Source: Morinoia aosen
Taxonomy: Eukaryota > Arthropoda > Malacostraca > Amphipoda > Talitridae
Direction of reading: 5' to 3'
Length of the DNA: 64,000 bases
Assembly (NCBI GenBank): GCA_030386875.1
Contig: CM059578.1
Location: forward strand, 17,655,009-17,719,008
Part shown: in pieces, positions 9,851-46,500 of the stretch
Layout: the number at the start of each line of letters is the position of its first letter
Position numbering within the stretch: position 1 is the stretch's first letter
The notes under the pieces: generated by a model
What the model saw: only the letters and a program-made list of their open reading frames with translations
Database searches by the model: none
What the model was told of the DNA's origin: nothing
Made by a program: the position numbers and the translations under genes

Positions 9851-9851
9851 C

Positions 9852-9861
9852 TGGTGACCCC
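9852..9861 (+). other. Primer binding site (copy 1)
   Basis: TGGTGACCCC one base after the LTR. The same sequence occurs one base after LTR2. In the CsRn1/Kabuki lineage of Ty3/Gypsy elements a PBS of this form pairs with tRNA-Trp; only the first ten bases agree here. Confidence 0.6.
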
Positions 9862-9965
9862 AGCTTTCGAGCTTAAAACAAAGCTATTCAACTCGATAAG
9901 TGTTTGAGACCTCGACGGCACCCCAAACACCACAACAACAACATTCCTTGGGTTTCTTTTTGAGC

Positions 9966-10535: not shown

Positions 10536-10536
10536 C

Positions 10537-10546
10537 TGGTGACCCC
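10537..10546 (+). other. Primer binding site (copy 2)
   Basis: TGGTGACCCC immediately inside LTR2. It is identical to the site after LTR1 and consistent with a tRNA-Trp-primed Ty3/Gypsy element. Confidence 0.6.
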
Positions 10547-11005: not shown

Positions 11006-11741
11006 ATGCCCGACACCGAGAATGCTGCAGATCCAGTGCGCAATAAGCCTATAACTTTGCCTCCTCTCATACCAGCAGAAAGCCAAACTTGGTTCAACCA
11101 AGTTGAATCGATTTTCCGCTACAATAATATTACCCAGCAGAGTGATATGTTCCATGCATTAATAGCTGCTGCGCCCACGCACATGTTAAGTGACTCTAAT
11201 GATTTAATTGTCAATCCGCCTGCTATAAATCCTTACGGGATCTTAAAAAATAAAATCATGGAAAAACTTCAAATGTCCGATGCGGACAAGTTTAGGTCAT
11301 TGGTTGACGCCTCAGCAATTCCACCTGTCTCTGTCTCTTTCTCTCCTACCTCGTTAGTTAAGGAGTTGCGAAAACTGGCAGCCGGTGTTGCCGTAGCTGA
11401 GGGATTTCTCAGAGAAGTTTTCCTAAGTAAGGTACCATCTGCGGTGCGACCTTTCCTGTCGATGGTCGGTCCGAGCGAGAGTCTTGAGACTCTTGCTCAG
11501 GCCACTGAGACAGTGATGCGCAACCTAAATATGTCACAAGCACCGCAAGTTGTTTCCTTGAACGCATCAGCTGCGAATTTTAGCCCGTCAAATACTGCTA
11601 ATAATCAATCCTCAGCAACAATAGAAACGATGCAGCGACAAATCGCAGAGCTGAAGCAAGCTCTCCAGAATTGCCAGTTAGGTCAGAGTGTAGCTTATAT
11701 CGAGCAAAACCCAAGGAATGTCTCACGTTACCATGTTCAAG
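11006..11741 (+). CDS. gag of CsRn1/Kabuki-like Gypsy element, 3' truncated
   Basis: Capsid precursor of the second LTR element. The protein opens MPDTENAADP and has the capsid start typical of this lineage (LPPLIPAESQTWFNQVESIF). A helical capsid core follows (about residues 30-190, including LREVFLSKVPSAVRPFLSMV and LETLAQATETVMRNL), then a Gln-rich segment (METMQRQIAELKQAL, about 205-220). The frame stays open for about 245 codons. It then runs at 11742 into an inverted fragment of the element's own LTR, so the last 15 residues to the stop at 11788 are LTR-derived. The nucleocapsid and all of pol are missing here. The start at 11006 lies at the end of the leader. It has no internal stop. 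Confidence 0.8.
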
Positions 11742-11893
11742 TGTTAACGTTTGGGGGGTATGGCCAATCGTTAATCGTGAATCGATAAGGTTTTCGAAGT
11801 TGCAAGAGAGGTCAATGACGACACATGATTGGGATTAGACTCAGCTGGGGAGGTTTCTTTATTGAAGGAAGCCGTGATGAACGAGGGAGCTGC
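11742..11893 (-). repeat. Inverted 152-bp LTR 3' end
   Basis: Reverse complement of LTR positions 9699-9850, from the LTR 3' terminus (TGTTAACG) inward. It joins the truncated gag to the Gypsy RT remnant of the older element. The inverted orientation relative to LTR1 and LTR2 shows a rearrangement after or during insertion. Confidence 0.85.
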
Positions 11894-12361
11894 TTAGTGA
11901 TGAACACTAAAAGCAGTAAATTTCCTACTCTCTTGGTCTAATTCAACCTGATGGAAAGCAGAGCGCAGATCCAAAATTGTGAACCATTTGTTCCCTCCTT
12001 AAGTTGATAATATTTCATCAATCCTGGGTATAGGATAAGACTCTTTCACCAAAACCTTATTAAGAACCCTGAAGTCTATCACGGGGGGGAGCTCTCCGCT
12101 CTTCTTCTTAACAACGATGACAAGGAAGATAAAGTCCGACATCGATTCCTCAATTATACCTTGTGAAAGCATATCATTAGTAATTTTTACAACTTCCTCC
12201 TGATATTTATGAGGAATTCTGTATGGAGCTAAATTCAGAACAGGTGCATCCGGTTTTAGCTGTATCCGGTGCGTCATAATGTTTGTAACACCTATAGTTT
12301 CTCCTTCTAACGTAACTACATCACGAAATTGATTTAATAAATTCATTAAAGGCGACTGCAT
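11894..12361 (-). pseudogene. Gypsy reverse transcriptase N-terminal part
   Basis: The open frame 12361-11999 reads APYRIPHKYQEEVVKITNDM, then GIIEES and VVKKKSGELPPVIDFRVLNK, the RT fingers region. It ends DEILST with a stop at about 11999. The same frame then continues GGNKWFTILDLRSAFHQVEL, which carries the first catalytic Asp (ILDLRSAFHQ), and TAFS just before the junction at about 11894. In Gypsy elements TAFS is followed within a few residues by RxPFGL, which is exactly what resumes at 4193. That establishes the gene's continuity across the 7.7-kb insertion. Confidence 0.85.
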
Positions 12362-21246: not shown

Positions 21247-22291
21247 GTATGATGAAATGTCTATTTTACTTTCACTTTTTAATGTTATAAAATTTTAATT
21301 TAACTGAGTGTAGCAACATCACGAATTATCTAACTGTAAATATGTAAAATTAAATGGAGTGGTGATACTATGTTGTATATTAAAATAGAATAAATACCTA
21401 ATTATCTATAGTATGATTCTCCAAGAAAAAATTATTAGGAAAGCTGGGAATATTTCAATTTAATTTAGGTCGAAAACTTTAATATGAAATAGTTAGCCTC
21501 AATGACTAGCTAACATCGGGATTAGTGGATTTAAAATAAAAATTTAAAGTTCTCATGATGTATGCTGTATGCATATGATGTATGACTAGGAATTGAAAGT
21601 TGTTGAAAATGTCATCAAATTTTCAGAACAGAAAAAAAATTTAATTTCTGTGGGAATGTGTGAGAGAGAGGGGGCATTTTCAAAGAACAGGTGTATTGAA
21701 ATTAATTCAATTTAAGAATTATTTTTGCTGTACTCTAAACAATGAACCTGACATGCTTTTTTTGAGTAAATCTACCAATATAGCTGGCCACTGCTCTCAG
21801 TAGACTCTTCAGATAGACAAAATCTCTTCAACATAATTCTCAGGAATTAAAAATTCACATTATTTTTCTGAGTTCTGGACTGTATCTGTGGTTTTTAATA
21901 TGAAACCATATTTCTGGTATTTTCATATTGTTCAGTTAGCAATGTAATTGTTCTTTTAGGTCACTTAGGCTCACTTTATAGGCTCTTTTAAGGTCATTTA
22001 GCTGAACCTCTCAGTTGAGGTCACCTTTCAGATTGTTAAATTCAACCTGTTCTTGTGCCTCAGACATCCTGCTAACTGGTAGAACTAAGATGTAAATATC
22101 CTACTTTAGTAGGTCATGATTGGGTATTATATGCATTAATAATATTTATAATATCAGTAATGTGAACTGATCAAGTGTTCCCATCCTTTTTAGGCCAACT
22201 CTACACAACAATTGCAATGAAAAAATTACTGAAGTTTGTCTATCATGTTTGGTATATATTTTGTTTTAATTTGATCATTTTTCTTTCACAG
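21247..22291. other. No gene seen; intron-like upstream of zinc-finger exon
   Basis: About 1 kb of A+T-rich sequence. It ends in a strong acceptor (TTTTTCTTTCACAG, AG at 22290-22291), so at least its right part is an intron of the following gene. Confidence 0.55.
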
Positions 22292-22736
22292 AAGAAATGA
22301 GTTCCTGCAGAATATTAACAATTGATTCTGGTTCTGAATCAGGACCAGATGAACCTGAAAACAAGAAAAAGAGACTGAGAATAATCGAGTTTGCCAAGCG
22401 CCGAAGGTTCCCATGCCCAGAATGTGGGAAAAACTTGGTTCACCCTCCTCGCCATCTGCGCGCCATGCATGCCTGGGACGAGACCAAAGCAAAATACGTA
22501 GGCCTAACTCACGAGCTCAGAAAGGAGTCGTCCCACAAGGGGACTGGAAAGGTTCGCAATTATCACAAAAAGGCTAGATGCCCATTCCCCGAATGTCCTG
22601 CGGTGGTTAAACGCGTGGAAAACCACTTGCTCAGCGTTCACAAACTTTCAAAAAAGGAACAATTAGTGAAATTTGAAAACTTCAACTTTTCAACCTCAGC
22701 TCCTAGGATTGAGCAACAACTCTCAACTTCAAACAG

Positions 22737-22794
22737 CAACAACTCCCAAGCGAGTCGGCAACAACTCCCAAGCGAGTCGGCAGCAACTCTCAAG
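22737..22794 (+). repeat. 22-bp tandem repeat interrupted by the P element
   Basis: Units 1 and 2 are identical (CAACAACTCCCAAGCGAGTC plus GG). Unit 3 has 14 bp here and its last 8 bp (CGAGTCGG) at 32482-32489, directly after the right target duplication. The repeat is thus completed exactly across the element. Confidence 0.9.
22787..22794 (+). repeat. P element target site duplication, left
   Basis: CTCTCAAG. It is identical to 32474-32481. Eight bases is the length produced by P-superfamily transposition. Confidence 0.93.
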
Positions 22795-22820
22795 CACAGA
22801 GAAAATACATAAGAAGAGGA
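22795..22820 (+). repeat. P element terminal inverted repeat, left
   Basis: CACAGAGAAAATACATAAGA and onward. The complement of the right end reads CACAGACCAAATACAAGAAG, the same apart from two substitutions and a 2-bp gap in the first 22 or so bases. The pattern CA..A.GAAATA.CATAAG resembles the Drosophila P terminus, from memory of that family. Confidence 0.85.
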
Positions 22821-24360
22821 ACAACTTCTAAGGGGACATCCTTGCCTCGCAATCCGAATACTAGCTCTCAATTGGCTAGTCGAATGAGTGACTCTAACCA
22901 ATGAGCTACTCAAATAGGAGTGACGTTTCTTCCGTGCGAAACCTCATTGGCTCTCAGGTATCATCTCGTTTAGGGTAATTACCCCAAATTAGGGTAATTT
23001 CAAAAACTAAATGGCGACTTTAACGTGAGCATTGCTGCATTTCGTAACTATGTCTAATCATTATATAGGGTAATATCATGCACTTAGGTTATTTTCCTGC
23101 AATTGAGGGGATATTCTTCTACACGCAATGGTATTTTCTCTATGACGGAACGACGACGAATTGGAGAAATTCCTTTGATATTTTATTGTAAGGCTGCAAG
23201 ACCGGCAGACTCTCGGTGGGTCCTAGAGCTGAGACCAATAAAATGTCATGTAGCACCTAATGGCGCTGTTATAAAGTTGTGATTTACAAGGACCGAATTG
23301 CTGCACATTTTTTAGTACAAACGCGTTCTAACTAAGGACAATGAACGGCAGGCACATGTTATTAAAATGGGATTAGCATATATTTCAGGAATGGTTGTTT
23401 ACCGAGAAAACTTGTCCATATTTAAACTCGCGCAAATCAATAAGGAAGAATGTAGTTACTTTACGGCAAATGAATACTACACTAAACCAATGATATCAAG
23501 TAGGGGAGTTACGAACAGGATTGTGACAAGAGAATCAGAAAATAAATCTCAATAATTTCCAATGAAGTTAATATTTAAAATACGTTTCCCAATACAAATT
23601 TGAATGCTTTACAAAACAGCTCTCAAGCTTGTAAATAAAATACAATACACTGAAAAACTACCCTTTGTGACCCAAAAGGAACCCAAATGATAGAAAAGAA
23701 TCACCATTACTCAGCTCATTCAATAATACAAGAAAGTCTGACCCAATAACACTTTCAATACTAGTGAATCCATCAACAATGGAACTTTACCGAGGTAAGA
23801 GTGTAGCAAAATCAATGTGCGCTAGCACCATGTACATATTCTTGATATAGGTTTAAATTTTAATATTAAGATATGAGCCTAAATTCCTAATTTCCAAATA
23901 TAAGTTTAAGTCGTAATAATTAAATATAAGTCTAAGCTTTTACTCACGAGAATTCACAGTAACCTTGCATTTCAATAATTTGAACTCAAACATAAATTCA
24001 GCCGTAAAATAACTATGAAAATCGTAAATAATTTAGCACTACGAAAGTGAATAAATTCACCCAAAAACTTAGATTAGAAAAACAATTATTTTATTAAAGA
24101 CCTTACGAGTCTACAATAAAGAGCATCCTTCCGCCGCACGGTTTTCAAAACAAGGGTAGACTTCCGGGCCATTTCAGTATATAAAGTAGGGCGCAACAGC
24201 CAAATATGAACCATACAAATCTACAAGGGCCAGTGTTAAGACCTTAGATACAATCGGCGTCTGGAACATCCCTTCTCTCAACATTCTCAGTCTACAATCT
24301 TTACTACACTCCTCTTTACGACGCATTCTTTTTACCACAATATCACTCCTCTTTACACTC
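22821..24360 (-). other. P element 3' subterminal region
   Basis: Non-coding, with AT-rich stretches, ATTGG/CCAAT-rich short inverted segments at 22870-22960 and three TAGGGTAAT motifs at 22971-23075. Short frames such as 23367-23555 (+) have no recognisable domain. Confidence 0.5.
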
Positions 24361-24364
24361 GCTT

Positions 24365-24590
24365 AGTCAACACCTCTGTCATCGTCTCTGACAGTCAATA
24401 ATCTCTGTCAACATCACTGACAGCCAATAACATCTCTGTCAACATCACTGACAGTCAATAACATCTCTGTCAACATCACTGACAGTCAATAACATCTCTG
24501 TCAACATCACTGACAGTCAATAACATCTCTGTCAACATCACTGACAGTCAATATTTCCGTCATCTCTGACAGTCGACACCTCTGACAGTC
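24365..24590. repeat. 31-bp tandem repeat in P element 3' region
   Basis: Five to six units of GACAGTCAATAACATCTCTG + TCAACATCACT, with degenerate units on both sides. It lies 450 bp beyond the transposase stop and within the element. Confidence 0.85.
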
Positions 24591-25037
24591 GACATCTCTG
24601 TCGGTTTACATTCCAATGACACGCCTTCACCCTTGCGTCATCGTCATCAGCAGCATCTCTGCCACAAGAAAATTCTCGCCTGAACAAATCCTACGAAGAT
24701 CTTGGACTTGGAAGAAACTATCCTGGCCTTTGTCTGGCTTACCCCCCCCCCCCCCCTGGACGTGGCCTTTGCTGATCTCGTGTCCTGCTTCTGCCAGACT
24801 CATTAAAAGTCAAAGCTGAGTACAACCGTGGTTTCAATTCATTTCCTCTCAACGCGATTGGCACGATACGGTATTCCCAGACAGCAATACGAACGAAAAA
24901 GTGAAAGAAAATCAATAGAATACATTTAGTTTCCTGAATAGGAGTGGTGACCCCAAAAGCATTTGGGAACCACATACCCAATTAGCTAAAACGTTACAAG
25001 CGTTAATTAAATTTTCTATTGAACTGTTTAGGTGCAG
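24591..25037 (-). other. P element transposase 3' UTR side
   Basis: Non-coding sequence downstream of the transposase stop. It contains a run of 16 C residues near 24740-24758. No clear AATAAA was found close to the stop. Confidence 0.5.
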
Positions 25038-25607
25038 TTACTGATGTGTAATTTTCTTCACTTTTTCATTCACACTTGTTGAAGATACCCCTTTTTGTAG
25101 ATGCCTAATGCATTGAAGTGTTCTACATTTTACAAAGTAATTCTGAAAATATGCGTTGACCCGAACGCAGCAAAAGTTAAATGCGGAGATGATTGTGAAG
25201 AGATTATTCACTAGTTTGCGAAACCCTATAACATGACGATAATTCTCGAAACAAAATAAAAATACTCTTTCAAAATTAATTATTTCCCCAATGAACTCTT
25301 CGCTGCAGTAATTGAGAGAAGGCGGGGAAGTTTCAACATACTCTTTAAAGCTTGTGAAGAGGTGCATAGATAAATCTTGATTCGTGAGAATACGAGAACA
25401 AGTTTCACATGAAGGTAAGGTTGATCCTTTCAACTTGAGGTGAAACTGGTTGATTTTATGGGCTATATACCCAGCGAAGTAGGTAACGGCACCATCTACC
25501 TCCATTGACTCGAACATCCCTCCAACAATCGTAGATGCGGAGAAAGTTTTGGCTGCCTCTATTTCTTGGTAGGAGAGAACAACCGCCTCAGGGGCCTCTT
25601 CAGGAAC
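25038..25607 (-). CDS. P/THAP9-like transposase, exon 5 (C-terminal)
   Basis: Last exon, 189 codons and stop. It enters through the acceptor TTTGATTTCCAG in phase 0, matching the donor of exon 4. It encodes VDGAVTYFAGYIAHKIN, a motif near the C-terminus of P and THAP9 transposases, followed by two Cys pairs (CETC ... CFENYRHV) and a Lys-rich tail (VNEKVKKI). The open frame visible upstream of the acceptor (to 25658) is intron sequence. No stop or shift is present. Confidence 0.88.
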   Translation of the reverse strand, partial: VPEEAPEAVVLSYQEIEAAKTFSASTIVGGMFESMEVDGAVTYFAGYIAHKINQFHLKLKGSTLPSCETCSRILTNQDLSMHLFTSFKEYVETSPPSLNYCSEEFIGEIINFERVFLFCFENYRHVIGFRKLVNNLFTIISAFNFCCVRVNAYFQNYFVKCRTLQCIRHLQKGVSSTSVNEKVKKITHQ

Positions 25608-25944
25608 CTGGAAATCAAACCGTAACACAGCCATAAGAAATCGTGACAAAATTATCAATAAGAATCGTCCATACTTAACTTAATATCACTGTAATAAATA
25701 CACATGGAATGATATACAACTAAACATTATAGAAGTGAAACATACATCACTAGAGCCCAACAACAATGGCTTAATTTGTAGAACAGCTCGTGTAAATTTA
25801 CAATGGCAGTACCGTCATTTTAGAGTGTAATTAGAACTGATACGAGCCTAAACGTCAAGTATATACGCTTCATACAAGTAGCCTCAATCAGAATGAAGAA
25901 TCTATGACGTTAGAACAACATCGAGAAAATTATTTCTTCATTAC
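25608..25944 (-). other. Intron 4 of the P transposase gene (337 bp)
   Basis: GTAATG donor and TTTCCAG acceptor, phase 0. It is A+T-rich. If retained it adds a stop within four codons (…VMKK stop at 25930), which would give a protein lacking exon 5, comparable in kind to retention of the third intron in Drosophila P. Confidence 0.8.
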
Positions 25945-27567
25945 CTCTTCAACTATGTTCCACATTTCCACATTCAGGTCTTCTTCGGCCACCTCAACAT
26001 TGCTCTTCATTGGTGCCCTCATGAGAGAAGCTGTCGACACTTTGCAGTAAGCGTCAATGAAATTTTGAGGCGTTGGAAACTTCTGTACGTTTCTGATTTT
26101 ACCAAAGAATTTTTCCAGCTCGTCTTGACACAGATTCCTGACGCACATGTAAGGTAGGACATCTTCCTTGATTTTTGTTCTCAACAATAAAAGTGCATTG
26201 ATGGATTGAATCCACCCGTCAATAAAGAAACATCTTCGTTGGGGGTTCAATGAGCGCAATTCTTGTAGCCAAGAGATGTAGTCCTTCAAGATTTCAATAG
26301 ACGGAGAACTTTGTGAGAGTGGTTTCCTGAGAGGCACTTTCTCTGCAGGAGACTGAGAGTTAAAAATATCGAATAGATCATTAAATTTTTTACAGTACAA
26401 GCTGGTTGCTGACGCAGAAGCTGAGAGGGATTGTTTTGAGACGTAGTAGTCTAAAGCCGCACTTGTTGAGTTCGACAACACTTGAGTGGCTAGTTTGACT
26501 TTCATCCTTTGGGCAAATTTCAAATTGTACACATGCTCATGCGACAGACGAGGAACACATTTTATGCTACTTTTCTGTTCCAATTCAAAAAGTTGTTTGA
26601 TGTGATGCCAAGAAGCTGTGGAATTTAGAGTGGGCATGATTAAATCACCTTTGAGAAGAAAGTTTCGAGCATTTTTAATTAAATGAGGAGGGTCTTTTAA
26701 CACAATATACTTTTTATTTCCAAATTCTACAACAGGATTGGTTGATGAGCAGCCCATTTCCTTGAACGCTTTTTGGAAATTGCTGCCTTGGTCGCTCGTT
26801 ATGCCTAAAACAACGAAGCCTTGCTTTTCCATTGCAGCAACAGACTCCCGCAAGATGTCTTTGATGTACGCAGAGGGCATAGCGGATGATGTAAAGTAGA
26901 AGCCAATTGGATGTTTCCACTTTTTGGCTACCCCAGAAGCCATAACACAAAATGCAGAAGTAGCCAGTTTTTTGCAATTTCCGGTTTTTATATTTTCATA
27001 TCCTATTACGGTATCTTTTTCTTGATTATATGATAACCCTCTACGGAGGGACATTTCATCAGCGAAAATAAAGCATAGTTTATCTTTCGGGTTTGTGGGT
27101 TTCACTTTCATCTTCAAGATGGAAACACTTTTACTACTAATGCCTGGTGATAACTTGAAATTTCGCAGCACACTCACCACAGTAGTATATGAAGGCAAGG
27201 GTATGATGTTCCTCATTAGCTGATAATGGCTGACAGATGAACTGACAAGGATATTTAGAGCCAGCCATTTATGATACATGCTGTACCGTTGTTTACCCCT
27301 CAACTTATGTTTGACAAATTCACTGAGGTACGGTCCAAGTCTGCCAGAAACGCTCCTCAGAAATGCATCGGTGTTCAATCTCCTGTACAAAACCCGTGAT
27401 TTCTTACAATGCCTTCTTTCTTTCTTAGCTCTCTTTGTAGTTGATGTAGAGGAGCATTCAAGGGCAATCCGAGTTCCGGAAGGAGACTCTATTAGGCGTC
27501 TTTTGCAAGGCAACCTTGGATGGTGAGAGCTTTGCAACTCGGACCATTTCCTTTTACCTAGAGAGCT
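25945..27567 (-). CDS. P/THAP9-like transposase, exon 4 (catalytic core)
   Basis: 541 codons, open throughout. It holds the DDE-type RNase H-like core that cuts and joins transposon ends. Motifs in order: LCFIFADEMSLRRG (first Asp), VLGITSDQGSNFQKAF (second Asp), VLKDPPHLIKNARN (the conserved DPPHLxKxxRN box before the insertion domain), and NLCQDELEKFFGKIR near the end, which carries the acidic D..E pair of the final motif. The N-terminal part (RSVSGRLGPYLSEFVKHKL and YHKWLALNILVSSSVSHYQLMRNI) matches the region before the core in THAP9-like proteins. The exon begins after TTGTTTCAG and ends GAAGAG|GTAATG. Confidence 0.92.
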
Positions 27568-28118
27568 CTGAAACAATTTATAAATGATTGAAGTACAGAT
27601 AAAGTTAGTTAATTTTATTAAATGTCCTAATAATAATATTGAGAAAAATTTCTACATTGCCTAAATGGAATCAAATCATCCCACAATCGGTGTTCACAGA
27701 AATAGTATACTCATGGCATATTGTTTACACCATTTTTCGACATAACTATAGATCTAAGGTTGTTCCCTCGCTTCAAGAAGGAAAGGTATAGCCAAAAGCG
27801 CCAAGTCCTAACCACTCACACACAAAACTTTGGGTTTTAGGTTATCGAATTCGGCAGCAGGCACTTTTCACTGGTTTACCCTTGCTGTATCATGAAAGTC
27901 ACGTGCACCCCAGACCTGCGCCCATACGTGTCCAAGACGTCCGCCACACCCCCTCGGGGCTGCGTCAAAATCAGGCATTCACAAGCACCGTCCATTAACA
28001 TTTACCTTCTCCGAGTCATCTGGCTTCCTCAAATAACACACCACAACCACGCAATGGCCACTCCCATCCCATTCACCCACCCTAACTTTGGTCTACCTCT
28101 AATGCCCCTTCCACACAC
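27568..28118 (-). other. Intron 3 of the P transposase gene (551 bp)
   Basis: Donor GAG|GTGTGT and acceptor ATTGTTTCAG, phase 0 on both sides. The donor choice is the weakest of the four; no other phase-0 donor of quality is seen before the frame closes. Confidence 0.65.
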
Positions 28119-28268
28119 CTCCTTGGAGTTAGCACTGATGGCAGGTTCTACAGGTTCAGGAGTGCCAGACGCAATAGCTGGACCTTCTTGGGCAACCCTA
28201 CATTCCTCAGACGTTGCAAACAAGCGCCGTTTACAATGGATTGGAGGATTGGCACTCTTGGAAGAGCT
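28119..28268 (-). CDS. P/THAP9-like transposase, exon 3 (basic linker)
   Basis: 50 codons in phase 0 after the acceptor ACATTATTCCAG. It starts SSSKSANPPIHCKRRLFA and continues into a Pro/Glu/Ala-rich stretch. The first codons and the RRL motif resemble the start of exon 4 (SSLGKRKW ... CKRRLI), which suggests an old exon duplication. It is likely to be part of the flexible joint between the repeat linker and the core. The 3' limit depends on the GTGTGT donor. Confidence 0.7.
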
Positions 28269-28612
28269 CTGGAATAATGTACAAAACATCAATTACACTC
28301 GTTAATTTACTTGCAATCAATAAAATCCTACAGACAGAAACAGCGAGTTAAGAAAGAAGAGGAAAAACAGGAAAAGAAATGATAGCAAAAAAGGTACGAA
28401 AATTGGACGACTCAAAGTGAGCACACAAAATTAGGATTGCCGAAGGCCTTTTTATAGCTTAGGTCACGAAACAAAATCCCCTGGGGTCAACAATGCCCAT
28501 AGCATAGGATTGACAAAGGTAACTAAACTAAAATTGCTTACCCTATGCCCCCTAATGGATTTCCCAATCTGTAACTGAAAATGCAGTAAGCTGTACTTTC
28601 AACATGACTGAC
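28269..28612 (-). other. Intron 2 of the P transposase gene (344 bp)
   Basis: Donor CAG|GTCAGT and acceptor ATTATTCCAG, both phase 0. Confidence 0.75.
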
Positions 28613-29625
28613 CTGTACTGATGAAGCTATTACAATGTTCACTTTTGTGTCCTGTTGCGCAACATCAGAAGTGACAAAGTTGGGTGCATTTTGTGCTGAA
28701 AGCCTTTTAGCGCAAGTAATGAAAGGTTTTGCAGCACCTGGGGTTGACGTCTTGGCAGCACCTGGGGTTGACGGCTTGGCAGCACCTGGGATTGACGGCT
28801 TGGCAGCACCTGGGATTGACGGCTTGGCAGCACCTGGGATTGACGGCTTGGCAGCACCTGGGGTTGACGGCTTGCCAGCACCTGGGGTTGACGTCTTGGC
28901 AGCACCTGGGGTTGACGGCTTGGCAGCACCTGGGATTGACGGCTTGGCAGCACCTGGGGTTGACGGCTTGCCAGCACCTGGGGTTGACGTCTTGGCAGCA
29001 CCTGGGGTTGACGTCTTGGCAGCACCTGGGGTTGACGGCTTGGCAGCACCTGGGATTGACGGCTTGGCAGCACCTGGGGTTGACGGCTTGCCAGCACCTG
29101 GGGTTGACGTCTTGGCAGCACCTGGGGTTGACGTCTTGGCAGCACCTGGGGTTGACGTCTTGGCAGCACCTGGGGTTGACGGCTTGGCAGCACCTGAGGT
29201 TGACGGCTTGGCAGCACCTGAGGTTGACGGCTTGGCAGCACCTGGGGTTGACGTCTTGGCAGCACCTGGGGTTGACGTCTTGGCAGCACCTGGGGTTGAC
29301 GTCTTGGCAGCACCTGGGGTTGACGGCTTGGCAGCACCTGAGGTTGACGGCTTGGCAGCACCTGAGGTTGACGGCTTGGCAGCACCTGGGGTTGACGTCT
29401 TGGCAGCACCTGGGGTTGACGTCTTGGCAGCACCTGGGGTTGACGTCTTGGCAGCACCTGGGGTTGACGGCTTGGCAGCACCTGGGATTGACGGCTTGGC
29501 AGCACCTGGGGTTGACGGCTTGCCAGCACCTGGGGTTGACGTCTTGGCAGCACCTGGGGTTGACGGCTTGCCAGCACCTGGGATTGAGCGTTGGGCAGCA
29601 CCATGAGCATTACAACCATTACCTT
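28613..29625 (-). CDS. P/THAP9-like transposase, exon 2 (36-unit octapeptide repeat)
   Basis: 1,013 bp. It begins after a weak acceptor (GCTTGTGAG) with two bases that complete the split codon from exon 1, then 337 codons without a stop. After 12 lead codons come 36 units of a 24-bp repeat encoding AK(P/T)S(T/I)PGA with variants GKPSTPGA and AKPSTSGA. The unique end (AAKPFITCAKRLSAQNAPN to VNIVIASSVQ) leads to the donor CAG|GTCAGT. Because the unit is divisible by three, all six frames are open. This frame is chosen because it alone joins exon 1 and exon 3 in phase. The product is a Pro/Lys/Ser/Ala-rich basic linker between the THAP domain and the core. Confidence 0.75.
28734..29600. repeat. 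24-bp minisatellite, 36 units, within P element exon 2
   Basis: Units GCAGCACCTGGGGTTGACGT + CTTG with variation at four positions (GGGATT, GAGGTT, GGCTTG, GCCAGC). A block of six units (one G-type, two GAGG-type, three GTC-type) is repeated next to itself, so there is higher-order structure and amplification by unequal exchange or slippage is recent. Confidence 0.97.
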
Positions 29626-31993
29626 CTCACAAGCAGTGCATTTATGCCTCAGTTTGTTGACACCAAACAGATCCTATATTAAGTTTTGCTTTTGTGAGGT
29701 AATTACAATTTTTGTAAGTCATCTTTCCAACACCAACAAATGATTTACAAATGCTTCTCAAGGTTCACTTCTATTGTGCCTATTGCAGATATTCTCATTT
29801 GTTGAATGAAACACCCGGTTAATATGAACTGCTTGATTTTTGCAAGAGGAGTCACTGGAAACCGGACCACAAAAGTTGATACTCATTTGCCCATTTGCAA
29901 TGCAAAGTTTTTTTGGAGGGTTTAAAGGGTATGGATAGAAATTGTATGGCATTATTGTTTGATAATTAATATGAAGTATTGTAGCTTAAATTGAACAACT
30001 AATTTGCAAGATTTTATCCTAACACTAGCAATATTGCAAATACTAGATATTTCATATTATTAATGACTATGATGCAGCACTGTAGATTATGGTATAAAAT
30101 TACCTGCATTGTTCTTTCCTAACATCAACTATCATGCAATTACTTTGTCATTTTTGATTGTTTAAGAACAACATAAGCATGTTCTGTACATACCCATAGA
30201 AAACATGTTCAATCTTTCCGAAAAGTAAGAGAAAAGTAAATTTGAATGTTATGGTATGTAATATGTTTGGAGTAAACATTCAGACACAAATGCACCGCTT
30301 GTGAAAAGATAACGGTTGTAATGCTACTACAGCTTTTTACCTTTAGTATAAGAAAGCTGAAGTTCAATTTAACAAAGGTAAAATTCAAGTTAACAAAGAT
30401 CAAGTTTAATTTAAAAAAAAAAAAAGTTTAATTTAAAAAATTTCAACTTTAATTTACAAAAAGGCCAAGTTTAATTTAAAAAATATATCAATTTTAATTT
30501 AAAAAAGGTCAAGTTTAATTTTAAAAAGGTCAAGTTTAATTTAAAAAAGCTCAAGTTCAATTTAAAAAACCTCAAGTTCAATGTTGAAAAGGTTATGTTT
30601 CTAAAATTGCACACCTATGCAATAATAATATAATTGAAGCTTATTTGTGACAATGCATAATTGTTTAAAATTACTGGCACTGAAAATAGAGTAAATATAA
30701 TATCAGACAAACAAAAGTGCTGTGATTTTGTACTTAATTTGACATTCTTCAAGTTTTACCTATGAATCATTTGCTAAACAGATCATAGGTATTTATAGCT
30801 ATTTACAAAAAATGGTCCAAATAAACTTTATGTAATAAGTAACTGTGACAATTAGCAAACTGCACTGACTGAAAAGTTCAGCATTACATAGCTTCAAACT
30901 TATATTTAAACAATCAGGCTGCTGCAATAGTGGTTTATTGTATCATGTTATATAAAATAGTATTATACATACAATGTAATACCAAATTAGAGGCCAATCT
31001 CTTAACTAATAATTCTAATATAGCCTAATACCTAATTTAAAATATAGCCTACTTTAGAATTTTTAAATTCAACTTGAGCTTCATTAAATTGAACTTGAGC
31101 ATTTTTAAATTAAAGTTAAAAGGCTCTAGAGTGGTCTCAAGTTGACACTATAGACATACCATAGGGTAAATTGTGAAATGAAAATAATTATCAAACATGG
31201 AAAAATTAGGTAGTATTCAGTCACTTGCCAGTCATCACAATAATGAATGGACCTTTCATTGCTACATTTAAACAAATGTTCACTCCTACACAACTTGAAG
31301 CAGGCAAGAGTGGTCACTCATGGGGAAGTTATGTGTCATGACTTTTTTTATTTACATATGCTCCAAATAATAATTAGTAAAAATCACTTTTAAGCACAAT
31401 AAGTTTGCATTTTAGAAGCAATCTCAATAAGTAACAATATTTATGTTTCTAGGTTTATTGAAGTTCACATAGTAACCTACAATTGAAGGTTTCTGTCACT
31501 AGTTTTAGAACAATATGATTTAAAATAGAATTCCTCTGAGTTACGTGTACTAATTTCTAGTAACTTCTTTGATCAATTGACTTACTAATTTAGGAGCGCT
31601 TCAGCAGAATGATGCCCATATATTTTTACACGCAGTGCATTTGCATCAGAGTTTTGGTCATTCTCAAACAATCAAATTAATCAAAATATTTGCATTATTC
31701 ATGATGTTACAAAAGAATAATGCAAATAAGTTTTAAAGCATAGGCTACAGTAATGCATTTCAATCAGAAATAACACAATAATTTAATATCTAACCATTAC
31801 CATTCAACTCCAATAAAGCCTTGCAATAATAAAGCATCCAATAATAAAGCATTACATTGTCATCATTAGATCTCATAACAAAATTGAAAACAATTCAAAG
31901 GTGTCACTCTCATGAATGAGACTGCATTACGAAATACTGAAAACAAAGACAATTGCAATTTGCAACTAGATATTTTTAACAATTACCTATTAC
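29626..31993 (-). other. Intron 1 of the P transposase gene (2,368 bp)
   Basis: Donor CAG|GTAATA and weak acceptor TTGTGAG, phase 1. It is A+T-rich, without a coding candidate. It contains a degenerate tandem array (next entry). Confidence 0.7.
30355..30600. repeat. Degenerate ~20-bp array in intron 1
   Basis: About ten units of CAAGTTTAATTTAAAAAAGG and variants. Related CTTGAGC..TTAAATT motifs recur at 31070-31110 in the opposite sense. Confidence 0.8.
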
Positions 31994-32294
31994 CTGGTTT
32001 GTCCACCACAGTTTGTTGTGGAATAGCATCAGGTTTTAACAAGAACTTATTTTTGAATGGAGATAACACATATGAATAATCCCATTTGCAGAAGTGTTGG
32101 GCACACACATAGTAATTCCTAATTAAATTTCGCAGTTTCAACAAGTGAAGAGCCTCATTACCGCACGCTTCAAGCCACGCAGAACAAGTTTTCTTTCTAA
32201 AATTGAAATAAACTAAATCAGGGCGATTGACGCTATTATTTTCGCAATTAGTCATACAACAACGCTTCACACGAATACAAGGCGCCATGATCAC
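31994..32294 (-). CDS. P/THAP9-like transposase, exon 1 (THAP domain)
   Basis: THAP zinc finger that binds DNA near the transposon ends. After MIMAPCIRVKR the zinc ligands are CCMTNC (C-x2-4-C) and, about 50 residues later, YVCAQHF (C-x2-H). The intervening W (CSAWLEAC) and the final hydrophobic/Pro motif (LKPDAIP, in place of AVPTIF) fit the family. The exon ends CCAG|GTAATA in phase 1, so the last codon is split. The ATG at 32294 is followed by a second Met two codons on; either can start the protein. The terminal inverted repeat is 180 bp upstream. Confidence 0.92.
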
Positions 32295-32447
32295 TGTGCC
32301 ATGATGCAGAACTTTCTTCTAATAATGTCAACCAATCAATGCGCACCAATTTCAAAACAAATGATGTCATGAAATCTCTGCGCCCTGAGTGGTCATTGGT
32401 GATGACGTTTTTTACGTCTCCAGCTCGGAGCAAAATACTGATGAATC
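32295..32447 (-). promoter_or_regulatory. P element 5' region (presumed promoter)
   Basis: Short non-coding interval between the right terminus and the transposase ATG. It contains CCAATCA, CACCAAT and ACCAATGA, and a GACGTTTTTTACGTC palindrome at 32404-32418. No TATA box is obvious. The promoter role is inferred from position only. Confidence 0.4.
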
Positions 32448-32473
32448 CCGTATCTTCTTGTATTTGGTCTGTG
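32448..32473 (-). repeat. P element terminal inverted repeat, right
   Basis: Reads CACAGACCAAATACAAGAAG on the minus strand from 32473 inward. It pairs with the left terminus. Confidence 0.85.
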
Positions 32474-32481
32474 CTCTCAAG
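32474..32481 (+). repeat. P element target site duplication, right
   Basis: CTCTCAAG, identical to the left copy at 22787-22794. Confidence 0.93.
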
Positions 32482-33640
32482 CGAGTCGGACAGCGAGTAC
32501 GCCCTAAGTGAGTCAACATCGAGTGAAGAGGAAGTTCAACCATTTCTTTCCTTTAACAGTTTGATGAGTAAATTTAGAAATTATTTATCGAGTCCCATGG
32601 GGAAAGAGCTAGACACAAACACAATCGCACAACATATCCAACAATTACGAACTATCTTAAATTTCAGCGGAGTTCAAGACTTTCGAAATCTATTTCAAAT
32701 TCATAGGATGAATGAAACTTTCCGAAAATTGACAAAGCCGAAAAATAAAGGCGGAAAATCCTTTCAGAATTGTACCCTGAGGGGGTACGTCTCATCAATT
32801 AAGCACCTGATTAAATTCTTAAAAATACATACGGATCTCTGCCCATCTTTTTCATCTGAAAAACTCAAAAACTCGACTCTCTCTTTGAACAGCTCAGTGA
32901 TCTATCGTTAGGTTTGAAAAAAGGGTGTCAGAAAAAAACGTGGGCAAGGCAACAAAAAGACGTTCAGCGCCTTCCATCGTCATATGACATTCAAGAATAC
33001 CTGTGCTCCGACGTTCGAGGTAGAGTTTGAAAATCAATTTTTTCGATGGATTTTGGAGCTTTGTCTTTTTCTTCTTCATCTGGCAGTTTTAATGGTTTAA
33101 CTTCTTTAATTTTAGGCTTTTTCTGCATAGAAATTTCACTAGACAAAGGAAGCCGCGCAGGAGAAGTCAAACACCTAACGTTAGATGAATTCGTTAACGC
33201 CAAAATTTTTGAAGATGGATCCCATCAAGTAAGCGTTCATCGCCATAAAACCTATTATAAATACGGGCCAACGTCCATTAACATTGCTGTAAATTAATTC
33301 AAGCTCTTAACTATATACTAGCATTTAATTCGACCGTATTTTGCTAACCGAAATTCTCCTTTTTTTTCTTACGACTAAGGGTGCTGCTCTTTCAAGTGCT
33401 GCTTAAGGTTCTATATGCAAGCACTGTGGAGAAAGGCCGGAGTCAAATCCGATGTCGGGCCTACACTTCTCTAAGAAGTTGCTGTTACAAAAATTCGCAC
33501 TTCATTTCCATTGAAAAAGCAGGCTCTCGCGGCCAAAATAAACCACTCCGAAGCAACAGCATCGCGATCATACCTGACGATTGATCGTCAGGCAAATTCT
33601 CGTTTAGTGTCTTCACAATTAAGAGATATTCTAACCTACT
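32482..33640 (+). pseudogene. Zinc-finger/tyrosine-recombinase gene, 3' coding part
   Basis: Continuation of the split gene. An acidic Ser-rich linker (SESDSEYALSESTSSEEE) leads into a core-binding helical domain (LDTNTIAQHIQQLRTILNF ... TLRGYVSSIKHLIKFLKIH). A frameshift near 32875 moves it to LGLKKGCQKKTWARQQKDV and a donor at 33020. The next exon (33116-33288) has EISLDKGSRAGEVKHLTLDEF, where R of GSRAGE is the first catalytic Arg, and VHRHKTYYKYGP with the Lys motif. The following exon from 33380 contains LWRKAGVKSDVGPTLL, a TAA at 33472-33474, VAVTKIRTSFP, then NHSEATASRSYLTIDR, with the late His (33544) and the Tyr nucleophile (33571-33573). The layout fits a Crypton-like tyrosine recombinase, now broken. 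Confidence 0.72.
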
Positions 33641-34417
33641 GAGATAGCCAGCCAGCTTCTCCGTCCTCCGACCAGCCTGTGCTTTCTACATCTTCTACAT
33701 CTTTCTGCTCACCTATAAATGAATCTCCATCTATCGACAACGTCGGAAGTGCCTCCGAGCCAATCAGGTCAGGAGTGCCAATTCCATCAGATGCCGAAAT
33801 TCAGTGAACCAATGAAGCAACTATGATATCAGCAGAAGAAGACATGTGCTGCCAGCATGAGTTCGAAGGAAATCATTTCCCTGGACATTTTGAAACGCAT
33901 TTAATTGAGTGTTTCTCCTACCTGTTTGTGTGTGGAAAAGTTATGACGCGCAGTGGAATATTAAAAACTAAGTACAACCGAAATTGGCAGAGAAATTCTG
34001 ATAAGATACAACTGTACTCAAATAAAAAAAACTTAATTTAAAGTATAGAAAATGTGCAAAATAGGCTTATTGTTCGAACAAACACTCTTAGTTCGAAGTA
34101 TTGGTGTTGATGATGCGTGTTGGGATTTATATGTGCACTGATGTAGATTTATTTTGTGTACTGAATCTAATAGTTTTTCCTGCAGACACATCCCTCAGGG
34201 GGATACAACTATTGTATCCATGGGAATTAGCTCTCTCAGGGGAAAATGTGGGGTCCTGAGCTGAGAGTTAGGTAGGCCTTCTTTTTCTTGAATTAGTGTT
34301 TTTTGTTTTGTAATGAACCATCTTTTTTCGGTTCACTGCTGTCTTTTTTCAGAGCGATTAATCAATATTTGATGTGGATTTATTTTATTATTCATTAATT
34401 TCATTTTTTACTAGGGT
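33641..34417 (+). other. Tail of the recombinase gene and unassigned sequence
   Basis: Beyond the stop, the same frame stays Ser/Pro-rich for about 45 codons (PASPSSDQPVLSTSSTSFCS). The frame 33823-34041 has no recognisable domain. No other gene is seen. Confidence 0.4.
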
Positions 34418-35579: not shown

Positions 35580-38090
35580 GTAAGAGAAGGGAGTGAAGAA
35601 AAGAAAAACCGTTTGTTTCTAAAAAAAAATTATATATGAGATGCATGACAACATAGGGTTTAATAATTCCTTAATATAAGACGTCCTTAGAGAAACATAC
35701 CAAACGAGGCGTACTAATAGACGAACTGTACGAGGTGTACTATAGACATACTGTACGAGACGTACTAATAGACAAGTTTAACGAGGCGTGCTAATAGATT
35801 AATCCTATCACGGGATATTTTATACTCCAAGAGATAGCAGACAACTTATATAAATAATTGTAATACTACTAGAAAATTCTTTGAAATTTCTAAATTATTA
35901 GTTGAGACGAACGAAGAAAAGATAAAAAACGCTATAATGAAGCAGATTAGAACACCCTCGTAAATATTTAATGAAATTCATAGCTTGTTCAATAATCGGA
36001 CTGGAAGATAATTTTTCAACGATTCCTATGCTCACTTTGCGCTTTATTTTATTTGTCTTCGTAATTTTCATTTTTTCTATCCACAGGAATTATCGCTTTC
36101 TGTGGTAGCGATAGATCTACTTTTGAATCATTTAGCGAAAAAAGAAGAAAAAAGAAAAAAATCGTTTATTTCCATGTCGCCACATGAGATACATGCCAAC
36201 ATATTGGCTTTTAAAAATTTCTTAATATAAGACGTCCTAAATCAAAAGTTCCATACGAGGATTACTAATTGACAAACCATCCGAGGTGTACAAATAGATA
36301 GACCATACGAGGCATATTAATAGACAAAATATACGAGGCGTACTAATAGACAAAACATACGTGGCGGGCTAATAGTCTAACTCTGTCAAGGGGTAGTTGA
36401 ATAAGAAATGAAAAATAACATCTCCTAGATATTTTATATTCCAAGAGATGGCTAACAACTCATAAATAATTCGAATACTACAAAAGAATTCTTCGGAACT
36501 CCCAAGTTATTCGTTGAAATTATCGAAGTAAGAAAAAGACAAAAAACGCTATACCGGAGCAGATTGAAACACCATCGTAAATGACAATCAAGTATTGAGC
36601 AAAGGTTGGTCACGATGTAATTTATAAAGAACATCGCGCAACACAGCACGCACATCTAGAAATGCGTAAACAAACTTACGCTCAAAAATGAAATGCATGG
36701 CTTGTTCAGCATACAAATATAGAGATAATTTTTGCACGAGCGCTTTATTTCATTTGTCGTCTGTTGATACTTTTAATTTCTTCTATTCACAGAAATGCCC
36801 TTCGGGGCCGTGATAGATCGATTTATGAATCATTAAGCAAGCGGAATCAATTTGTTTATTTCTGGAATTTGGTTCAGTGTTAACTGATCGCAGAGCTTTA
36901 GGTAAAATGTAATGTGTTTTGAGGTGTTGCTTTTTCCGCAAAAAATTGAAATAGAAACATATATATGCACATGTATGTATATATATGTACGAACGTGTGC
37001 ATGTGCACACAGATACATAGCTATTCATATTTGCGTGCGCACACATACACACACATGCACACACTTACACACACATATTCATATGTATACGTATTGAAAA
37101 TGAATATGAGAAAAATACTAATAAACACAAAAAATAATCTTGCTCTTTCTACAAATGACAGCCAAAGCTCTGTGTAATCGTAAGAAATAACCTGAGGAAA
37201 AATAAGGAATAGAAAAAGGACTTCGAAAAACGTACAAACGAAATGGTTTTTTAATTTCCTTAAAGAAATTGTAAGAAAACTCAAAGTTACCGTCGAGGAA
37301 CAACAACAACAACAAAAAAATATATATTTCATATCTTCTCGATATTCTCTGCAACATCATGCGTACATGGGTACATGGGATAAAATGGAGATACAGTGTA
37401 AGCCGGTTACCACTCATGATTGGCAAATATGTACAAAATTTTGGCAGAAATGCGTAAACAAACATATACTCAACATCAAAATTCATAGTTTGTACAGCAT
37501 ACGGACAGAAAGATAATTTTACCACGATTCATATGTTCAAATTGCGCTTCATTTCACTAATTGTATTTGTCATTTTTCCGATTCACAGAAACGGCCTCTG
37601 GGGAAGTGACAGATCTATTTTTGAATCATTTCGCTAGTGCAATAAAATTTATTAATCGGATTGTTTTCGCGTATAGAAATGAAATAGAAACATGTATATC
37701 TACGTATGTAGGTATATATATATACCTACACACATATTAATATATATACTTATTGAAAACGAATATAAGAAAAAAATACATATACAAAATAAAAAGATAA
37801 AAAGCAACCTACCATCTACAACATCGAAAATGACAGTCGAGCTCACTGTAATCCTAAGAAATTATTCGGAATAAAAAACCTAGAAGGAAAAAAAGACTTC
37901 GAAAAACGTAAAAATGAGCTGGTTTCTAATTTATTCATAGAAATTTTTAAGAAAACTCAGGTTACAATCAAGAAACAACACAACTCAGCATTATACGGAC
38001 ATGTGTACATGGGATAAAATGGAGTAACATTGTGGCCGGATATCACATCTGAGGGGCGAATATTTTACAAAATTTGGCACATATAGGTAG
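35580..38090 (+). repeat. ~2-kb dispersed repeat family R, copy 1
   Basis: Matches copy 2 (41690-43510, inverted) and copy 3 (49780-52100, direct). It is built of diverged subunits of about 700-800 bp, each containing a block like ACAGAAATGCCCTTCGGGGC followed by GATAGATCGATTTATGAATC (near 36090, 36790 and 37590). Each also has a 20-22-bp CGAGGCGTACTAATAGACAA array, an AAAACGCTATACCGGAGCAG block, and a TG/CA-rich tract. No transposase, RT or long ORF is present. Confidence 0.8.
36955..37095. repeat. TG/CA-rich low-complexity tract
   Basis: GTATGTATATATATG...CACACACATGCACAC sequence; the frames here are artefacts. Equivalent tracts lie in copy 2 (42580-42725) and copy 3 (50990-51125). Confidence 0.8.
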
Positions 38091-41689: not shown

Positions 41690-43510
41690 CAAAATGGAGG
41701 GTTTTACTCCTGCTTTTGTTCCTGCGTTGAGCTTGTTCAGGTACGATAATATGTGTATGATAATACGTTTTTCGAAATCTTCTTTTCCTTTTAGTTATTT
41801 TTTCCGAATAATTTCTTAGGATTACAGTGAGCTCGACTGTCATTTTCGATGTAGTAGATGACAAGTTTTTTTATCTTTTTATTTCATATATGTATTTTTT
41901 TTTCTTATATTCATTTTCAATAAGCACATATATTAATATGTGTGTGTACGTATGTAGGTATATATATATATACATAAATAGATATACATGTTTCTATTTC
42001 ATTTCTTTACGCGAAAACCATCCGGTTAATAAATTTTATTGCACCAGCGACGTGACTCAAAAATCGATCTATCACTTCCCTAGAGGGCGTTTCTGTGAAT
42101 CGGAAAAAATGACATATATAATTAATGAAATAAAGCGCAATCTGAGCATATGAATAGTGGTAAAATTATCTCTCTGTCCGTATGTTGTACAAACTATGAA
42201 TTTTGATGTTGAGTATATGTTTGTTTACGCATTTCTGCCAGAATTTTGTAGATATTTGTTAATCATAAGTGGTAACCGGCTTACACTGTATCTCCATTTT
42301 ATCCCATGTACCCATGTCCGCATGATGTTGCAGAGAATATCGAGAAGATATGAAATATGTTTTTTTTTGTTATTGTTGTTCATCGACGGTAACTTGAGTT
42401 TTCTTAAAATTTCTTTTAGGAAATTGAAAAACTATTTCATTTAAACGTTTTTCGAATTTTTTTTCTATTCCTTATTTTTCCTCAGGTTATTTCTTACGAT
42501 TACACAGAGCTTTGGCTGTCATTTTAAATGTAGAAAGAGCAAGATTATTTTTTATGTTAATTAGCATTTTTCTTATACTCATTTTCAATACGTATGTATA
42601 TGAATATGTGTGTGTGAGTGTGTCTGTGTGTGCGCACGCAAATATGAATGTCTATGTATCTGTGTGCACATTCACACGTTCGTTCGTACATATGTATTTA
42701 TACACACATGTGCATATTTATGTTTCTATTTCTTTTTTTTGCTTAAAAAGCAAAACCTCAAGACACATTACATTTTAACCAAACCTCTGCGATCAATTAC
42801 CACTGAACCAAATTCCAGAAATAAACAAATTGATTGCGCTTGCTTAATGATTCATAAATCGATCTATCACGGCCCCGAAGGGCATTTCTGTGAATAGAAA
42901 AAATTAAAATGTAAAAACAGACAAATGAAATAAAGCCCTCGTGCAAAAATTATCTCTATATTTGTATGCCGAACAAGCCATGCATTTCATTTTTGAGTGT
43001 GAGCTTGTTTACGCATTTATAGATGTGCGTGCTGTGTTGCGCGATGTTCTTTATAAATTACTTAGTGACTAACCTCTTCTCAATACTTGATTGTCATTTA
43101 CGATGGTGTTTCAATCTGCTCCGGTATAGCGTTTTTTGTCTTTTTCTTACTTCGATAATTTCAACTAATAACTTGGGAGTTCCGAAAAATTCGTTGTTAG
43201 CAATCTCTTGGAATATAAAATATCCAAGAGATGATATTTTTCATTTTTTATTCAACTGCCCCTTGACAGAGTTAGACTATTAGCACGCCACATATGGTTT
43301 GTCTATTAGTACGCCTCGTTTATTCTGTCTATTATTATGCATCGTATGGCTTACCTATTTGTACACCTCGGATGGTTTGTCATTTAGTACTCCTCGTATG
43401 GAACTTTTGTTTTAGGACGTCTTATATTAAGAAATTTTTAAGAGCCAATATGTTGGCATGTATCTCATGTGGCAACTTGGAAATGAACGGTTTTTCTTTC
43501 TTTTCTTTTC
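41690..43510 (-). repeat. Dispersed repeat family R, copy 2 (inverted)
   Basis: Reverse complement of copies 1 and 3. Shared landmarks are the GTACGCCTCGT/ATTAGTACTCCTCGTATGG array (43290-43400), the CCCGAAGGGCATTTCTGTGA block (42874) and CCCTAGAGGGCGTTTCTGTG (42080). With copy 1 it makes a large inverted pair around the LINE fragment and minisatellite. Confidence 0.8.
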
Positions 43511-46500
43511 TTTCTTTCAACTGAGTTTGGTACGATAAAAAGTGTGAGTTAGTTTACACGAAAAGTGCAAAGTATTGTCTGCCCGACACTGTCAAGTGGT
43601 ATCCAGAAGAGTCGAGATCAAGTACACACCCCTCACGCACACACCACAAGTCAAGGAAGAGCTAGGAAAGTCGAGTTCGAGCTAGGAAAGTCGAGTACAA
43701 GCACACACACCCCACACTCAAACACCACAAGGCAAGTACGAGCTAGGAAAGTCGAGGATAATACAGCACAGGCCCGAGAGACTGATCTGAAAGCCTTAAT
43801 TGATTCAAGAAATAGCGTAATTTGAGTTCAAATTACAAAAACCACCTAGAAGATTCACGAATCCTGAGACCGTGTGACGAGAATCCTGCGTTTGGTGCAG
43901 GAATCCTGAGGCCTTGGCGCAGGGGTCGAAAATCCAAATTTTTATATACAAATCCAGATTTATGCCATCCCTAGGTTACACGATGTCCTGTTAACAATTT
44001 TAAAAAGAGTGTGTGGGCACTGGACTAGCATTCAGCATATGAACTATAAGCACTGTGTATGTGCATGTATTTGCGTATTTGTATTCACATATACATATAT
44101 GTGTGCGCTAAAGTGGTAACTAGAATTTGGACGAGAAATACCGTTTTTTTCGGTTCACTCTCAACTTGCAACATTACCTAACACGTCATCTCTCTTTACT
44201 AATGTGAAGCACTCAAAAAAGTGTAAATTTGTCGCGTGATCACTCACATATGTTTTACTAAGATGCTTATCAAATAATGACCGTTATGTTAAAAAAAATT
44301 AATTCGGAAAACAAAACTTGTAATTTCCATATCATTCTAACTTGTATACTGGTATCCGTGTGCATGTGTGTGAGCATGTGTATGCGTACGCACATATATC
44401 TGTGTGCACTGGACTATCATCTAACATATGAACTATAAATACCGCCTTTTTTCACTCGCAACTTGTAACACTACCATAACTCGTCATTTTCACTTTATTA
44501 TTTTGAAACATTTGCAAAAAATTAAATTTGTTGTGTGATCACCCATATATGTTCGAATAAGATGGTTATCAACGAATGCCCACTATGTTAAAAAATTTAA
44601 TTAGAAAAACAAAACTTGTAATTTTCATGCTTGTATCCTGGTCTCTGTGTGCATGTGTATGTGTATGTATGCCAACATTCGTATATGTTTGTACATTCAT
44701 ACATTTACTCACAATAGTTCTTGCAAAATCTCTAATCAATCGACTTGCATTTGCCTTGTAAACTTGGTGTGTGGGTTAAACCGTGCTCATTTAAGCAATC
44801 AGGTAAGTGTAATTTTTCATAAGTGTATTCTTTTTTGTTCAAGCTCGCTCGAAATGATATTTTTGAATGTCTGCCACAACAAGCAACTATAATATTATTC
44901 CCTGATTTCATGAAATCCAAAGCTGAAATGTCAATGTACGTGCAAACTGTCACTTGTGTTTTCACCCAACAAAGTTCTTATTTTTATAGCTTCCATGAAT
45001 TAACAAACACTATTCAATTTCAATTAAGCAGCTATAGGAGACATTTTTGCACTTTTTCCTCCGTTTTCGGACACGCATTATAGACTTGACCGTCGTTTTC
45101 ACTTATTTATGTTTCTCAATTAAAAACATTTGCATCATGTTTCGAAAATAACGTAACTTTTTTTAATTTCGTAACTTTGTGGAACATTAATGTGTTCTTC
45201 TATTATTCACATCCTAAAATGTTCTCGTTAGTCTTGTGTGATGCAAATCATTATACGCTCATGAGAATGTTATGTCAACCCCATCTTGGTGGTCACTCTC
45301 ACATAACACTCCAATAATGTTGTACATGTCTTGGTAGCCGTTGTAGAATAATCATTTTCATGTTTCTGACTCATGTAGACTGTTATGCGGCTATATTATT
45401 AGCATGGAAATATCATAATTTCGTTGAGTGTTAAAAGACATTTTCTCCGAGACCCTCGATTGGAATACTAGTCTATACGTAGGAATAAAAATATAGTTCT
45501 GAATGTCAACCTCGCTGCCTTGAACGCAGGATTATTTCGATCCACCCGTTTTACTTTCAATAAATTACTTATACCGCAAGTCCTTGAGCTCGTATTTCAC
45601 TGCAAGTGTGCACTAAAATGAGTTTTCTCAACTATACTTTGTGACATGATTCGTGTTTTCTTTTAAAATTGTAGGTACATATATCATCAAATCTTGAGTA
45701 AGGAACACTAGGGATACATAACCCTCAATCATTTTTTTCGACTATAGTGACATGGGTATTACGATACTCGCGTGTGTGTATCATATACGTGTATTTTCCT
45801 TACTTTAAAATATTTTAAAAACCAATGATGTTTTCTACCATATCTATTGGATATAAACAGTTTTTTTTCTTTTTTCAACGGTTTTGCATTAGTGACAAAT
45901 GTTGAAGTATGAAGAATGGAAATAATATAGTCTCAGCATGTCACTCGTATAAAGTAAATAATTGAATTTTTATTTAACTTTACTCGCACTGACGAATGAG
46001 CTTGCCAATAACAACTATAAGGAAGTAGTGTATAGCTGATAAACGTATCATTTAAGTTATTCATTCATTCAGCAAGAAGTAGAAATTTCCATGAGAAAAA
46101 ACCCAATTAATCTTCAATAAAAAAAAATTCCTTTGCCTGCAATTTTAACATTTTTCTCTCTGACCTATTCTAAGAAAGGACAAAAATTAGCTTGTATCTA
46201 AATTTCTCACAAAATTATCGAAAAAATCAAGTTATAATCTGAGGACAACACAGATATTTTAGGTTTCACATTCTCTCGGTTTTCCCAACAATAACATAGA
46301 CACTGGTACATAAAAAGAAAAAATTCATGGTGATAGATTCGTATCGCTTAAAAATGACAAATGGCTTCAAAATTTTTACACATTAGGGATATTATCTACA
46401 CGGATTTGTTTGTTTGGCGTCTACATTTTACCGATTTATATTGGTATCATCTGCAAGGTATTGAAGCCTGAATCACAGATACGCTCATCTCATCATTTGT

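Follow-up and report, generated by a model that had tools for sequence, protein, structure and literature searches.

A P-superfamily DNA transposon, complete and probably autonomous, inserted in a tandem repeat of the amphipod Morinoia aosen

Introduction

The known systems nearest to the element described here are the P element of Drosophila melanogaster (6p5a, 6pe2) and zebrafish Pdre2, together with the THAP9 proteins of zebrafish and human, and what is said of them here is drawn from two papers (PMC7776569 and PMC10983969). The fly element has perfect 31-bp terminal inverted repeats (TIRs), an 8-bp target-site duplication (TSD) and a transposase with a THAP domain and a split RNase H fold carrying a guanosine triphosphate (GTP)-binding insertion; retention of its third intron (IVS3) yields a 66-kDa repressor (PMC7776569). 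Pdre2 likewise has an 8-bp TSD, a THAP domain and short TIRs (13 bp), and the zebrafish THAP9 protein holds a disordered insertion of ~100 amino acids between its THAP and dimerization domains that has been proposed to serve as a linker (PMC10983969). THAP9 in human has no transposon ends (PMC7776569). Here, we analyze a 64,000-nucleotide stretch of the talitrid amphipod Morinoia aosen (assembly GCA_030386875.1, contig CM059578.1, positions 17,655,009 to 17,719,008 of the forward strand; hereafter "the window"), in which an element with its transposase gene on the minus strand occupies positions 22795 to 32473. We conclude with high confidence that this element is a P-superfamily DNA transposon, complete and probably autonomous, which entered a 22-bp tandem repeat by cut-and-paste insertion, with duplication of an 8-bp target.

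The element shares with the fly system the 8-bp TSD, the THAP domain, the GTP-binding insertion and an intron ahead of the C-terminal part of the protein. It differs from it in length (9.7 kb compared with 2.9 kb), in its imperfect ends of 21 to 23 nt and in the repeat-coded nature of its linker, and the two transposases are only 25% identical in a structure alignment. The Pdre2 TIR sequence also differs from that of the element, and in place of the ~100-amino-acid insertion of zebrafish THAP9 (PMC10983969) the predicted linker here consists of ~290 amino acids of 8-residue repeats.

Results

The element measures 9,679 bp and lies between two copies of the word CTCTCAAG (22787–22794 on the left and 32474–32481 on the right), so that the perfect 8-bp duplication claimed in an earlier note on this DNA holds on both sides. 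Its left TIR (22795–22817, plus strand, 23 nt) reads CACAGAGAAAATACATAAGAAGA, and its right TIR (32453–32473, minus strand, 21 nt) reads, in reverse complement, CACAGACCAAATAC--AAGAAGA. Aligned end to end, the two share 19 identities, with 2 mismatches and one 2-nt gap, and are thus imperfect, as had been noticed earlier; when pairs were drawn at random from the window and scored in the same end-anchored way, only 1 of 20,000 reached the value of 28 seen here. The left end bears a modest resemblance to the fly TIR: of 20,000 random 24-mers, 24 score as well, as do 54 of the 8,195 beginning with CA. The resemblance of the right end is unremarkable (649 of 20,000 and 1,024 of 8,195, respectively). 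The TIR alignment, together with the open five-exon frame described below, supports the earlier claim that the element is complete in its ends and coding capacity.

The insertion site itself provides further evidence. The element interrupts a 22-bp tandem array (22736–22795, plus strand), the third unit of which is finished on the far side of the element, at 32482–32488. When the two flanks are joined with a single copy of the TSD, this third unit becomes GCAGCAACTCTCAAGCGAGTCG, which is in register with the others and differs from their consensus at 2 of 22 positions. This in-register unit, although evidence internal to the sequence, argues more strongly for a real insertion than does the 8-bp match by itself. 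It also bears on the idea that the locus is a domesticated, THAP9-like host gene and no transposon at all, for which human THAP9 would be the precedent. The flanking TIRs, the perfect duplication and the interrupted array mark a discrete insertion, and because of these transposon ends and the TSD we rejected that idea, which is largely refuted and very improbable.

The predicted transposase gene comprises five minus-strand exons that total 3,657 nt without a single internal stop codon, exactly as previously drawn. The codon drawn as the start of exon 1 is GTG, and an in-frame ATG lies at 32288, 164 bp from the right TIR, giving a protein of 1,216 amino acids. A 4-codon upstream open reading frame (ORF; ATG GCA CAG TGA, 32302–32288) stops two bases ahead of this ATG. 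Exon 1 (31994–32288) ends in phase 1 at the donor CAG/GTAATA, which matches 7 of 9 consensus positions, and 3.8% of the GTs in the element are equally good. It encodes a THAP domain (PF05485, E = 3.1e-11, 44.3 bits against a cut-off of 23.9) in which the C2CH spacing is present, as judged by eye against the consensus. A search of the PDB, at E values up to 1, found five sequences, none of them THAP proteins.

The catalytic core is encoded by exon 4 (25945–27567), which contains a helix-turn-helix region, a split RNase H domain and a GTP-binding domain. The predicted fold and alignment revealed an RNase H fold with a DDE triad, D170, D259 and E485, that matches fly D230, D303 and E531 exactly. 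The GTP-binding insertion is recognized by PF21788 (E = 6.5e-25), and 7 of the 8 residues that contact GTP in the fly enzyme are identical here. Taken together, the sequence, the predicted fold, the catalytic and GTP-contact residues, the TIRs and the 8-bp TSD support the element as a genuine and new member of the P superfamily, the identity first proposed from the THAP domain and catalytic motifs.

Exons 1, 4 and 5 of the model are well supported, and exon 2 is its weak point. Across the gene, the donors of exons 1, 2, 3 and 4 match 7, 8, 7 and 6 of 9 consensus positions, and the 17 positions ahead of exons 2, 3, 4 and 5 include 9, 12, 11 and 11 pyrimidines. The exact five-exon model of the earlier note is borne out only in part, by relatives at the exon 4/5 junction, and is less secure at exon 2, with its weak acceptor and its minisatellite.

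Exon 2 as proposed (28613–29625) consists largely of a 24-bp minisatellite (28731–29602, minus strand) of 36.3 copies with 0% indels, which encodes units of the GAAKPSTP and GAAKTSTP type and is followed by a unique 3′ part. The predicted product is strongly basic, with 40 basic and 3 acidic residues among 338. It is possible that exon 2 does not code as drawn, with either the minisatellite being intronic and the THAP exon being joined to the core in some other way, or exon 2 itself starting inside the array; both would be compatible with a complete P-superfamily transposon. Of all AGs in the element, 56% score as well as or better than the acceptor of exon 2, which sits within an inverted repeat, and the array is open in all three sense frames. 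Moreover, the variants of the repeat unit favor no frame (2 of 8 variant types are synonymous in each), and the array alone is therefore not proof of coding. The sequence CCCCAG/GT occurs in most of the 24-bp units and, by our reading, is also in phase with exon 1, so that both the 5′ boundary of exon 2 and the length of the linker are uncertain. On the other side, 24 is a multiple of 3 and not one indel occurs across 36 copies, the donor is good (CAG/GTCAGT, 8 of 9), and the unique 3′ part of 118 nt is open in the predicted frame only. Finally, exon 1 ends in phase 1 and exons 3 and 4 start in phase 0, and a linking exon is therefore needed between them. On balance, we think it rather unlikely that exon 2 is misdrawn.

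Exon 3 (28119–28268, 50 codons) has no significant homologue among the 77 proteins that we compared. It has a weak similarity to the start of exon 4, with the motif CKRRL in both and a protein match equalled by 4 of 5,000 shuffles. The AG/AGCTCT junction is also common to exon 3 and the exon 4 start (27567–27450), and the DNA match was equalled by 5 of 2,000 shuffles. To judge by this likeness, it is as if the start of one exon had been duplicated. Intron 1 (29626–31993) holds a long imperfect inverted repeat (29890–31830), a predicted hairpin. The transcript strand folds to −460.9 kcal/mol, compared with −380.6 (standard deviation, 9.6) for 15 dinucleotide shuffles, and forms 223 long-range pairs, compared with at most 161 in the shuffles. 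A search of Rfam at gathering thresholds gave no match.

Exon 5 (25038–25607) encodes a C-terminal domain of 189 amino acids and the stop codon. It has no Pfam match and is homologous to the C termini of two of the 77 proteins, P0014 (1.6e-26) and P0027 (1.1e-18), as found by phmmer. Intron 4 (25608–25944) thus lies between the catalytic core and the C-terminal part, in a place comparable to, though not necessarily the same as, that of fly IVS3. The fly IVS3 junction lies ~30 residues nearer the core. In the predicted gene model, retention of intron 4 would give a protein that reads ...NIVEE/VMKK and stops, truncated after the catalytic core, and by analogy it presents a possible parallel to the IVS3 repressor switch of the fly.

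The place of intron 4 appears to be matched in relatives. Among the 25 nearest, proteins from public contigs that are 40 to 52% identical to the window protein (P0001 to P0025), 22 reach the end of exon 4, the others being P0019, P0023 and P0025. In 20 of these 22, the protein ends no more than 50 residues past the last one aligned (some of these frames may end with their contig), whereas P0014 and P0022 continue further. By eye, 16 of the 22 have Val-Ser at the exon 4 donor and 4 more have Val with a different residue after it. In phase 0, either GTAAGT or GTGAGT would encode Val-Ser, and the ends of the relatives therefore fit a conserved phase-0 donor. Relatives at a greater distance, P0029 and P0030 among them, run on into the C-terminal domain. 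From these sequences, the exon 4/5 intron apparently keeps both its place and its phase in relatives.

A tree was built from 46 rows, comprising the window protein, the fly segment and 44 of the 77 proteins. In it, the window protein fell away from the fly, within a group of 22 rows (support, 100/100) made up of the window protein, the 20 of P0001 to P0025 that were included, and P0027. P0027 is only 32% identical to the window protein, and its presence in the group means that the tree does not establish P0001 to P0025 and the window as a clade that leaves it out. A full-length search with residues 486 to 1216 found at least 3 proteins among the best 7,987 candidates by shared words, which were the ones scored. 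In viral contigs, no relative was found at the DNA level with either the single protein (1 pattern match) or the alignment (44 pattern matches). In genome contigs, 1 of 47 pattern matches was confirmed as a locus, in a cyanobacterial metagenome-assembled genome (39% identity over query residues 354 to 417). The titles and abstract openings listed from an open collection of papers contained no description of this element or its clade; Repbase was outside this scope, and we make no claim of absence from print.

Several observations weigh against the reading of a complete, probably autonomous element. Its TIRs are imperfect, unlike those of the fly P element, and they and the odd exon 2 argue against recent mobility. 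When the ends were compared locally and without anchoring over 200 bp, the match did not reach significance, scores at least as high being found in 62 of 500 random pairs, and the similarity of the ends is therefore confined to the outermost ~23 nt. Among 8-bp direct repeats, at least 12 of the 30,029 pairs scanned score 50 or more, above the element's own pair; these pairs, which were not filtered, resemble palindromic words inside larger inverted repeats. Unlike Pdre2, which carries 12-bp subterminal repeats (PMC10983969), the element has none that are significant between its ends: the best inverted match between them scores 20, and we dropped it as below the random 95% value of 24 (99%, 33). 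On the same scale, each end contains a palindrome of its own, with a score of 31 on the left and 24 on the right. The exon 4 donor is middling, with 21% of the GTs in the element as good, the first AATAAA lies ~940 bp past the stop codon, and the Pfam model for the C-terminal part of RNase H fell below threshold (E = 0.025). No second copy of the element was found in the window by blastn at E = 1e-3. Two end-like matches, at 58797 on the plus strand and 61205 on the minus strand, each have 4 mismatches in 18, and we judged them to be due to chance.

These observations raise the question of whether this is an inactive or immobile P-superfamily copy that has lost function, without stop codons, through its splicing, ends or promoter. 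The imperfect TIRs, the weak exon 2 acceptor, the many repeats in intron 1 and the 3′ region, and the lack of another copy within the window would all fit such a loss. Against it stand the 1,216 codons without a stop, the retention of the catalytic residues and of 7 of 8 GTP contacts, and the perfect TSD. Loss of function is a serious possibility that falls somewhat short of an even chance, and it would refine the reading of a complete P-superfamily transposon. Because the frames are open, the active site is intact and the duplication is perfect, recent mobility is plausible, and it is a fair inference from the sequence that the element may be active.

The element also splits an older plus-strand gene (22270–22794 and 32474–33800), in which a zinc-finger-like N-terminal ORF, with no Pfam match above the cut-off, lies upstream of a Phage_int_SAM_5 match (E = 4.5e-6) and then of tyrosine-recombinase-like pieces in several frames. 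Across the reconstructed empty site, the two sides of this gene are in different frames. We presume from its resemblance that it is perhaps a Crypton-like or domesticated recombinase. Elsewhere in the window, two copies of one non-long-terminal-repeat retrotransposon with endonuclease and reverse transcriptase lie in opposite orientations (4201–7614 and 54556–57955) and are 94.5% identical. A search with the protein of a non-long-terminal-repeat element gave 165 hits; among the 120 listed, three bear a species name (Holothuria once and Nothobranchius twice), at 29 to 31% identity. Three copies of one repeat family of ~1.5 to 1.9 kb (36137–38026, 41764–43518 and 50181–52101) occur in both orientations and are ~84 to 90% identical over their aligned pieces. 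A 633-bp direct repeat (9277–9909 and 9962–10594) is 98.7% identical, and part of it is inverted at 11740–11895.

Discussion

Homology to the fly transposase leads us to expect that the THAP domain of exon 1 recognizes DNA near the ends of the element. The core encoded by exon 4, with its DDE triad and GTP cofactor, would cleave the element at both ends and join these to target sites that lie 8 bp apart, and the C-terminal domain would come from exon 5. If exon 2 is spliced as predicted, its long, basic, low-complexity repeat may act as a flexible tether between the THAP domain and the catalytic core, by analogy with the insertion of zebrafish THAP9.

Going further, we can imagine a separate animal P clade in which an IVS3-like intron serves as a switch between transposase and truncated repressor. 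This member would have added a fast-changing, strongly basic linker of 24-bp repeats, the copy number of which tunes the reach of the THAP domain to the ends, and the intron 1 hairpin could add RNA-based self-silencing. We regard this scheme as speculative and improbable as a whole.

The P elements of the fly have shaped genetics. The literature cited here deals mainly with the fly element and with the THAP9 proteins of zebrafish and human. An apparently intact copy that belongs to a distinct clade would provide a testable enzyme with a naturally long predicted linker. It would also make it possible to ask directly whether control of the P transposase by intron retention predates the flies.

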